A stretch of 64,000 nucleotides of DNA, taken from the NCBI RefSeq assembly GCF_001424755.1, contig NZ_LMRF01000001.1, positions 708,169 through 772,168 on the forward strand, given 5' to 3'. Each line of letters starts with the position of its first letter. Position 1 is the first letter of the stretch. A program made the translations under genes and the position numbers. Positions 58,316 to 59,769 of the stretch are shown here, piece by piece. Origin of the DNA: Marmoricola sp. Leaf446 (lineage in GTDB: Bacteria > Actinomycetota > Actinomycetes > Propionibacteriales > Nocardioidaceae). Below the pieces are notes generated by a model. The model saw only the letters and a program-made list of their open reading frames with translations. It was not told the DNA's origin and did no database searches.

Positions 58316-58344
58316 TTGAACCGACGGACCTCCCGTCCTACGCT
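58316..58344 (+). promoter_or_regulatory. Strong sigma-70-type promoter of the small RNA/micro-ORF unit
   Basis: TTGAAC (58316-58321) and TACGCT (58339-58344) are spaced by 17 nt, the best -35/-10 pair by eye in the window apart from 53385. Predicted start near 58351. Confidence 0.65.
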
Positions 58345-58350
58345 GGTCGG

Positions 58351-58545
58351 ACACGGGAAAGGAGGTGGTCCGAGGAATGAGTTCTTCGAGGACGCGTGAG
58401 GTGGCTGCCCACTAGCAGCGCACCGCCCAGCCGCGTGAGCGCGCTGGTGAATTCCAAGCAGTCACCCGACCCGCAGACGATCCGGGAACACGTCCCCCGG
58501 AGCGGCCGAACCCTCGGCCACGTCTGCGGGTCGCCTGCTTTTGTA
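58351..58545 (+). ncRNA. Candidate small structured RNA with embedded micro-ORF
   Basis: The predicted transcript begins after the 58316 promoter and carries AAAGGAGGTGGTCC at 58358-58371, a 12-codon ORF (58377-58415) and a branched fold. The outer stem is CGACCCGCAGACG (58467-58479) with CGTCTGCGGGTCG (58521-58533), extended by AAGCAG (58456-58461) with CTGCTT (58535-58540). It encloses hairpins CCGGG...CCCGG (from about 58482) and GGCCGA-ACCC-TCGGCC (58504-58519). A TTTT run ends the stem (58539-58542), as in an intrinsic terminator. The next gene (58556) has its own -10 immediately after. No Rfam family recognised. Confidence 0.45.
58377..58415 (+). CDS. 12-codon micro-ORF with near-perfect Shine-Dalgarno
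   Basis: ATG to TAG encodes MSSSRTREVAAH. The purine tract AAAGGAGGTGGTCC just upstream matches the complement of the 16S rRNA 3' tail (AAAGGAGGTGATCC) at 13 of 14 positions, far better than any other gene start here. The stop codon lies in the loop of a small GCTGC/GCAGC hairpin (58404-58419). It may be a leader peptide, a translated sensor, or a micropeptide gene. The GTG at 58365, in frame, is an alternative start. Confidence 0.45.
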   Translation: MSSSRTREVAAH

Positions 58546-58549
58546 GGGT
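58544..58549 (+). promoter_or_regulatory. -10 element TAGGGT of the MarR gene at 58556
   Basis: TAGGGT is followed by 6 nt and the ATG at 58556, predicting a separate leaderless transcript that starts where the candidate small RNA ends. Confidence 0.5.
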
Positions 58550-58555
58550 GCGCCC

Positions 58556-58996
58556 ATGGCCGACGACGAGACCATCCTGGCGCTGGAGCACGAGATGAGC
58601 GTGCTGATCCGTCGGCTGCGCCGCAGGATCGCCGAGCGGGCCCGCCTGGTGCACCCCGAGCTCGCGCCCGTGGCGTACTCGATGCTGATGGCGCTCCACG
58701 ACGGCGGCGCCCAGCGGGCCAGCGCGCTGGTGGAGCTGTTCTCGATCGACAAGGGGGCCGTCAGCCGCCAGGTGCAGACGCTGCTGGAGCTCGGGCTGAT
58801 CGAGCGCACCCCCGACCCCGACGACCGCCGGGCCGCCATCTTGGAGATCACGCCCCTCGGGCGCGAGCGGCTCGACGCCGTCGCGGCCCAGCGGCGCCTC
58901 GAGGTGATCGAGAAGCTGCACGACTGGTCCGACGAGGACCTGCGGGACTTCGTCGACGTGATGTCGCGCTACAACACGGCGCTCGAGCGGGGCTGA
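58556..58996 (+). CDS. MarR-family transcriptional regulator
   Basis: 146-residue winged-helix protein. DNA-binding segment RASALVELFSIDKGAVSRQV (about residues 53-73) and wing RTPDPDDRRAAILEITPLG (about 82-100). The downstream gene is a DtxR-type regulator 68 nt away. No adjacent pump or enzyme suggests its target; the small RNA unit just upstream is the nearest candidate. Effector unknown. Confidence 0.92.
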   Translation: MADDETILALEHEMSVLIRRLRRRIAERARLVHPELAPVAYSMLMALHDGGAQRASALVELFSIDKGAVSRQVQTLLELGLIERTPDPDDRRAAILEITPLGRERLDAVAAQRRLEVIEKLHDWSDEDLRDFVDVMSRYNTALERG

Positions 58997-59064: not shown

Positions 59065-59769
59065 GTGAGCGACCTGATCGACACCACGGAGATGTACCTC
59101 CGCACCATCTACGAGCTCGACGAGGAGGGCATCGTCCCGCTGCGCGCCCGGATCGCCGAGCGGCTGCACCAGAGCGGTCCCACCGTCAGCCAGACCGTGG
59201 CGCGGATGGAGCGCGACGGGTTGCTGACCGTGGAGGGCGACCGCCACCTCCAGCTCACCGAGGAGGGCCGCAGCCTGGCCACGCGGGTCATGCGCAAGCA
59301 CCGCCTCGCCGAGCGGCTGCTGACCGACGTGATCGGGCTCGACTGGGAGCTGGTGCACGAGGAGGCGTGCCGTTGGGAGCACGTGATGAGCGAGACCGTC
59401 GAGCGCCGGCTCCTCGAGCTGCTCGACCACCCCACCGAGTCGCCCTACGGCAACCCGATCCCCGGACTGGCCGAGCTGGGGGAGACGCCGGCCGGCGAGC
59501 AGTTCCGCGACGGCGTCGAGTCGTTGACCGACGTCGCCGGTGCCGAGTCGCTGCGGGTGCGGGTGCGCCGGATCAGCGAGGAGATGCAGAAGGACGAGTC
59601 GCTGATGACCGCGCTGCGCCGCGTCGGCGCGCTGCCCGGGGCCGTCGTGGCCGCGGTCGCGACCGCCGAGGGCGTCCTGCTCGGCTCCTCGGGCGAGACC
59701 GCCGAGATCGTCCCGGAGGCGGCCGACCACATCTTCGTGACCGTCGCCGGCGAGGTCACGCGGGTCTGA
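59065..59769 (+). CDS. DtxR/IdeR-family metal-dependent regulator
   Basis: 234-residue iron-type regulator. N-terminal winged helix (RIAERLHQSGPTVSQTVARM near residues 27-46), dimerisation domain and C-terminal SH3-like domain. Metal ligands of DtxR are recognisable: Met in TTEMYLRTIYELDEEG (Met10 equivalent), His and Glu in KHRLAERLL, His in ELVHEEACRWEHVMS, with Cys, Glu and His in EACRWEHV (Cys102, Glu105 and His106 equivalents). Having Cys at that place favours Fe(II) over Mn(II). EfeO-efeB, an iron uptake system, lies 3 kb downstream and would be a plausible target. Overlaps the convergent Sir2 gene by 14 nt. Confidence 0.94.
   Translation: MSDLIDTTEMYLRTIYELDEEGIVPLRARIAERLHQSGPTVSQTVARMERDGLLTVEGDRHLQLTEEGRSLATRVMRKHRLAERLLTDVIGLDWELVHEEACRWEHVMSETVERRLLELLDHPTESPYGNPIPGLAELGETPAGEQFRDGVESLTDVAGAESLRVRVRRISEEMQKDESLMTALRRVGALPGAVVAAVATAEGVLLGSSGETAEIVPEAADHIFVTVAGEVTRV

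Follow-up and report, generated by a model that had tools for sequence, protein, structure and literature searches.

Several RNAs whose short open reading frames (ORFs) are translated or carried within a fold offer points of comparison for the locus described here. Dual-function small RNAs such as SgrS/SgrT and RNAIII are stand-alone RNAs that contain an ORF and whose peptides are conserved, while tmRNA holds a short ORF within a knotted, stable RNA. In leader-peptide attenuators and upstream ORFs (uORFs), a short ORF is translated through a fold that acts on the downstream gene. One such uORF case, from S. aureus, is described in passages of PMC13009471.

Ms_IGR-5 (RF02471) is catalogued in Rfam as an actinobacterial sRNA. 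Its presumed source is an Hfq pull-down in M. smegmatis (PMC4109619, in part), and excerpts of later papers describe a M. smegmatis transcript, ncMSMEG15794c, that overlaps IGR-5 (PMC10454040), its validation by RNA-seq in S. lividans (PMC8079986) and a match of the family to an sRNA transcription unit in S. avermitilis (PMC8780764). Ribosome-protected reads were reported on its homologues in M. abscessus and M. smegmatis; according to passages of the same paper, other sRNAs and tRNAs are also among the protected RNAs and coding potential is hard to assess (PMC4974804), so that the footprints alone prove little. A conjectured link between Ms_IGR-5 and scr4389 was not confirmed. Among the open-licence PMC papers searched, no functional study of Ms_IGR-5 was found.

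An Ms_IGR-5 RNA in Marmoricola and its relatives

A covariance search of 64,000 nucleotides from Marmoricola sp. Leaf446 (the window, to which all positions refer) placed RF02471 at 58351-58539 on the forward strand, as are all features below, with 124.5 bits (E 5.1e-29). The match covers the full model (1-184 of 184), exceeds the gathering cut-off of 45 bits and is the only one in the whole genome. The original prediction had described a small RNA/micropeptide unit with a near-perfect anti-16S site, of no named family. The Rfam search that it recommended corrects the last point, while the description itself was right: the micro-ORF and the stem, whose loss in relatives would have spoken against it, are kept there. 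Upstream lies the promoter-like sequence that it had pointed out, TTGAAC (58317-58322) and TACGCT (58340-58345) with a 17-nt spacer (58317-58345). A strict sigma-70 scan called no promoter at this position; a comparable −35/−10 arrangement was seen by eye upstream of many class and 'Zixibacteria' copies. The T-run expected at the 3′ end is present (TTTT, 58539-58542) but short, and the sole call of the terminator scan was a small 5-pair stem directly 5′ of it.

The 3′ end of the host genome's own 16S rRNA reads GGATCACCTCCTTTCT. Its predicted complement, AAAGGAGGTGGTCC at 58358-58371, forms 13 Watson-Crick pairs and one G.U in 14; when G.U is allowed the pairing extends, by eye, to 17 contiguous pairs, three of them G.U, at 58356-58372. 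As had been claimed, no comparable ribosome-binding site exists in the window, where the other 12 sites found carry three mismatches each. Apart from this site, the 14-mer AAAGGAGGTGRTCC (R at position 11) occurs free of mismatches in the 3.8-Mb genome only on the strand antisense to the 16S gene; one further site has one mismatch. With G.U allowed, 16-19 contiguous pairs to the 16S tail of the window genome were found in 262 of 273 loci.

Of 394 genomes of the class, the Rfam model detected the RNA in 249, which represent 85 of 137 genera, and gave no match in the remaining 145; phylum-wide it matched 70 of 396 genomes, 35 above the cut-off. A model built from 54 aligned 5′ halves (R1) matched 152 of the 396, some of which had supplied sequences to it. 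Within a sister genus of the same family R1 matched 15 of 31 genomes, 12 strongly, and none of the other 16; the RNA is thus patchy in that genus and may have been lost there. Outside the phylum, R1 matched 21 of 60 genomes from the phylum to which the 'Zixibacteria' locus L125 belongs (no E-value above 2e-9) and 17 of 40 in that of the 'Sumerlaeota' locus L107 (three weaker than 1e-6), both counts including the centre genome, whose copy is in R1. The Zixibacteria copies that were read contain a Shine-Dalgarno sequence (SD), an ORF and a AAATCCCAACAG-like segment, and most of them also have a stem with a T-run. Among 148 genomes from the phylum of the 'Deltaproteobacteria' locus L147, R1 had 5 matches, four of them weak: the L147 copy is clear, L269 and L270 are homologues by eye, L271 is probably no homologue and L272 is unplaced. 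By eye, L269 and L270 carry AAGGAGGTGATCCAGTG, ORFs of 14 and 15 codons that run from GTG to TAG, and arms resembling helix P3 (see below), GGTGGTGAC/GTCACCACC and GGTGGTGTC/GACACCACC. An Rfam scan of ten loci from these three phyla returned RF02471 in all ten, five above and five below the cut-off. Taxon names are those of the records and bins of metagenome-assembled genomes can be wrong; contamination is an unlikely source of matches in a third of a phylum's sample. As judged from these sequences, the RNA is present in at least two bacterial phyla beyond Actinobacteria. An 'Acidobacteriota' locus (L131) resembles the actinobacterial type of other classes and perhaps comes from a misnamed bin, and its phylum was not counted. 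Phage carriers were also rejected: the pattern occurs in two viral contigs, in neither of which R1 has a match at E 0.001.

The counts below rest on several locus sets. The class set holds 88 loci, the window included, taken from the 249 matching genomes as top-scoring loci plus a hand-picked spread of families; the non-class set holds 40 of the 42 non-class matches in the phylum; and the named set was drawn as 80 loci from at least 120 stretches, of which 76 were kept, L163 being dropped and L107, L125 and L147 moved to other sets. For the Zixibacteria and Sumerlaeota phyla, 12 of 21 and 12 of 17 loci were read, and the set labelled 'sumer' also contains L269-L271 from the L147 phylum. A held-out set comprises 40 hand-picked R1 matches of the phylum from outside R1 training, none weaker than E 1.3e-8. 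Duplicates (L026, L030, L255-L257, L288, L292, L293) and L297-L302 were left out, L272 was not placed, and L289 and L291, missed by the search expression, were read by eye. Among the named and G loci, L099/L048, L118/L075 and L153/L039 appear to be the same genomes.

Reading frame and peptide of the micro-ORF

The predicted ORF of 12 codons is present, from ATG at 58377 to TAG at 58413-58415 (58377..58415), and would encode the peptide MSSSRTREVAAH. Among 273 loci, NTG triplets 7-13 nt after GGAGG shared the frame of a positionally fixed stop in 242 cases and were out of frame in 14, compared to 620 of 1911 (0.32) for an arbitrary triplet in the same interval. Subtracting the 76 pattern-selected named loci left 173 in frame vs 10 out (197 loci), and because some loci look duplicated the count was repeated on 255 distinct stretches, giving 227 vs 13; the loci are related, so none of these counts is made up of independent cases. 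A single rule applied to the 273 loci yielded 242 standard starts, 28 starts at CTG, ATT, ATC or ATA, which count for little as evidence of an ORF, and three loci without an ORF (L045, L213 and L271). With a wider start window, 205 of the first 207 loci had an ORF with the common end point, 179 of them starting at ATG, GTG or TTG and 26 at weaker codons. All 40 held-out loci contain the ORF (38 standard and two weak starts), with 38 NTG triplets in frame and two out. The distance from SD to stop takes all three residues modulo 3, which means that the start shifts to keep the frame. Comparison of these sequences thus shows that start and stop are kept in frame across relatives, as in a translated RNA, and that the stop has a fixed place in the RNA. 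An argument from ORF lengths changing in steps of three was discarded as true by construction; the lengths themselves are 10-15 codons with ATG, GTG or TTG starts and 17 once, with an ATC start.

The 242 in-frame ORFs start with TTG (148), ATG (70) or GTG (24), and such mostly non-AUG starts behind a very strong SD suggest that initiation is tuned rather than maximal. They end in TAG (211), TGA (20) or TAA (11). TGA is usually the dominant stop codon of high-GC genomes, from which many of these loci come although 211 of the 242 end in TAG.

In contrast to the frame, the peptide appears free to change. We compared codons across 152 loci (87 class, 65 named) representing 122 distinct 12-codon ORFs, and selection on the peptide was judged from codons 2-4, codons 5-12 being under RNA constraint. 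In codons 2-4, 103 of 568 single-base differences between pairs, which are not independent, were synonymous (0.181 vs 0.179 expected under uniform mutation), so the synonymous-site conservation that had been suggested as a check came out as expected without selection. In the 122 class-type ORFs, which were selected on nothing but their start and GAG, a stop occupies codon 13 in 120 (TAG 111, TAA 5, TGA 4).

A second anti-16S-like hexamer, GAGGTG, lies inside the ORF at 58398-58403. It is found 20-75 nt behind the SD in 207 of 207 loci, which had been placed using GAGGTG itself and 128 of which were found by the covariance model alone, and in 39 of the 40 held-out loci, which were placed by GAGGT. 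A fixed GAG GTG at codons 8-9 was therefore discarded as evidence, the loci having been placed by these letters. With the stop codon in the A site, the end of GAGG lies 8 nt ahead of the P-site codon. Some lineages are shifted: the distance from the first letter of GAGGTG to the stop is 14 nt rather than 15, GAGG ends 7 nt before the P-site codon, the ORF start has moved accordingly, and the same letters are read as GGA GGT. Nine loci with standard starts belong here, as do L238 and L305 (weak starts) and L289 and L291 (by eye). The letters GAGGTG thus look constrained as RNA. Taken across loci, these sequences show that the frame is kept while the peptide varies.

Helices formed by the coding strand

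The branched fold that had been predicted was recovered at -100.8 kcal/mol (z -5.2), an energy as low being reached in 0 of 200 shuffles. Four helices and a candidate pseudoknot can be described. In P1, CACG at 58352-58355 pairs with CGTG at 58395-58398, within codons 7-8. All four pairs form in 174 of 207 loci, compared to a mean of 87 and a maximum of 100 in 1000 shuffles, and the arms vary widely in sequence; many of the 33 loci that lack full P1 in this register appear off by one base. Among the 255 distinct stretches P1 is found in 206 at register 0 and in 220 with a one-base shift, and 39 of the 40 held-out loci have all four pairs. In P2, GTCC at the end of the 16S complement (58368-58371) is the local partner of GGAC at 58390-58393 (codons 5-6) in the predicted fold. 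In alignment A1, P1 and P2 taken together scored 0.347 for covariation vs 0.112 in shuffles, 0 of 500 being as high, and 0.009-0.102 when the pair of helices was slid along the alignment. Two other measures did not rise clearly above the shuffles: pairs changed on both sides numbered 3 vs 3.4 in shuffles, and further pair types 14 vs 12.2, with 46 of 500 shuffles as high. Every double change falls in P1, so that the search for compensatory changes, which the original prediction had called for, bore out P1 but not P2, which was rejected as a proven helix. Together these comparisons give strong support to P1 as a conserved helix.

In P3, GGTGGCTG at 58400-58407 pairs with CAGTCACC at 58459-58466. 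The 88 class loci contain 688 paired cells, compared to a mean of 672.5 and a maximum of 683 in 1000 shuffles, and variants such as GGTGTTCG/TGGACACC and GGTGGCTA/TAGCCACC occur, so that fold and comparison provide good support for this helix. The minimum-energy fold predicts a hairpin, P4, at 58410-58449 (approximate boundaries), whose 5′ strand contains the stop codon. A joining segment at 58450-58458 leads from P4 to P3; it reads AATTCCAAG here and is GAATCC-like, by eye, in many relatives. In many loci this segment, which seems to be unpaired, has GAATCC or AAATCCCA, perhaps as a contact site for a protein or a tertiary interaction. Behind P3, the perfect 13-bp stem of the original prediction (58467-58479 with 58521-58533) would enclose two inner hairpins (58467-58533).

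The loop of the first inner hairpin contains GTCC (58492-58495), the candidate pseudoknot partner of GGAC at 58390-58393. With the partner allowed anywhere in 90 nt, the loop changes along in some loci (GGAT-ATCC, CGAC-GTCG, TGAC-GTCA), and an AGAC variant finds its partner in 1 of 10. When the loop was chosen blindly, 148 of 197 loci paired vs at most 143 in 2000 shuffles. Of the 17 loci that lack GGAC, 11 find the partner in their own loop and nine would pair with GTCC regardless. The evidence for the pseudoknot is weak, and we regard it as a fair possibility.

These comparisons show that the ORF strand doubles as a strand of P1, with the 5′ end, and of P3, with the segment before the terminator; it perhaps also pairs with the terminator loop in the pseudoknot. 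The structure line of RF02471 in Rfam differs: it pairs the SD region with the ORF end, leaves P1 and the 3′ arm of P3 unpaired and lacks P1, P3 and the pseudoknot altogether. We rejected its pairing of the SD region, since P1 and P3 use those letters otherwise. A corrected structure and a wider taxonomic range are suggested for RF02471.

Gene context and possible roles

In the window, marR starts at 58556, 13 nt past the T-run, and a gene for an iron-dependent (DtxR-type) repressor starts at 59065. TAGGGT sits six bases before its ATG (within 58544-58556), and the marR mRNA may be transcribed leaderless. One of the original readings was a leader-peptide attenuator for marR/dtxR, and the co-directional ORF found at a similar distance in a locus of the same genus (L031) fits it, as does the position of marR. 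Around 207 loci (crude ORF calls and clustering; 128 scored, 79 unscored), however, the closest supported gene downstream is encoded on the opposite strand in 78 of the 128, 44 of these genes forming one protein cluster, and on the same strand in only 50, with 19 clusters overall. No conserved co-directional gene follows the RNA, and this reading was rejected as hardly credible. Because the downstream context varies among loci, the element is most likely a free-standing structured RNA gene of about 190 nt with its own presumed promoter and terminator.

We are fairly confident that this free-standing RNA is translated and is selected for translation rather than for its product. The strong ribosome-binding site would also suit a micropeptide gene, in which a product such as MSSSRTREVAAH is the functional molecule, and many loci, also in other phyla, encode EV with A or T next. 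EV may derive from the RNA letters GAGGTG, though, the peptide ends in GGxxx in the shifted-frame lineages, and codons 2-4 look neutral rather than under purifying selection; this second of the original readings is disfavoured and we judge it very unlikely. An ordinary base-pairing sRNA, its G-rich segment serving as seed and its ORF incidental or dual-function, would agree with that segment and with the sRNA type of the Rfam entry, but is hard to reconcile with a frame that is kept while the start moves, and seems quite improbable. A decoy that sequesters free 30S subunits or the 3′ end of 16S rRNA, for titration, hibernation or 16S maturation, the ORF merely releasing the subunit, draws on the long complement kept in 262 of 273 loci and on the near-uniqueness of the 14-mer outside the 16S antisense strand. 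A decoy alone, however, needs neither P1 and P3 nor a stop kept in frame, and we consider it unlikely, if less so than the base-pairing sRNA.

What the sequences suggest agrees best with the third of the original readings, in which the RNA senses or titrates ribosomes. We lean, with some reservation, towards an RNA acting in trans whose state would be set by ribosomes that bind the 16-19-nt 16S complement and translate the folded core. The 30S subunit would bind the long complement and then translate the micro-ORF, which would have to melt P1, P3 and P4. Since its spacing (8 or 7 nt) is SD-like, GAGG could pause a terminating ribosome: GAGGUG would lie at SD distance from a ribosome that has reached the stop codon and could keep it in place. 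With no ribosome present, GGAC and CAGUCACC, which resemble the 16S tail, could retake the two G-rich sites, and the RNA would thereby switch between a closed knot and an open, ribosome-held form, this state acting in trans. A still more general idea, which we put forward tentatively and hold to be rather doubtful, is a multi-phylum class of stand-alone, ribosome-run RNA switches in which the 16S tail and the translating ribosome compete with the internal mimics GGAC and CAGUCACC for the two SD-like sites. If so, the RNA would report free 30S subunits or initiation capacity and act in trans, and CC2171 of Caulobacter could be a further branch. It is a concrete candidate for a bacterial read-out of initiation capacity.

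CC2171 (RF01867), a Caulobacter sRNA, resembles RF02471 in that its consensus carries GAAAGGAGGUGAUCCAG, 17 nt that complement the 16S tail exactly, and differs in that its consensus line is without the GAGGUGGCUG block. Its model has no match in the window and scores 25.5 bits at L257, far under its cut-off of 75. Of 14 control genomes it matches two, those of Caulobacter vibrioides and Deinobacterium chartae, and one of these matches lies above the cut-off. That CC2171 is a second family of the same design, or a distant branch of the RF02471 family, is only a lead. The RNA is distinct from tmRNA, of which ARAGORN found no gene in the window. Leader-peptide attenuators and uORFs share with the RF02471 RNA the short ORF running through a fold, but the latter has no conserved downstream gene. 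An RNA catalogued as non-coding keeps a reading frame across phyla with a free peptide, so that translation and the making of a product come apart in a free-standing RNA, beyond cis-acting leaders. Whereas SgrS/SgrT and RNAIII keep their peptides, the RF02471 RNA keeps the frame and not the peptide.
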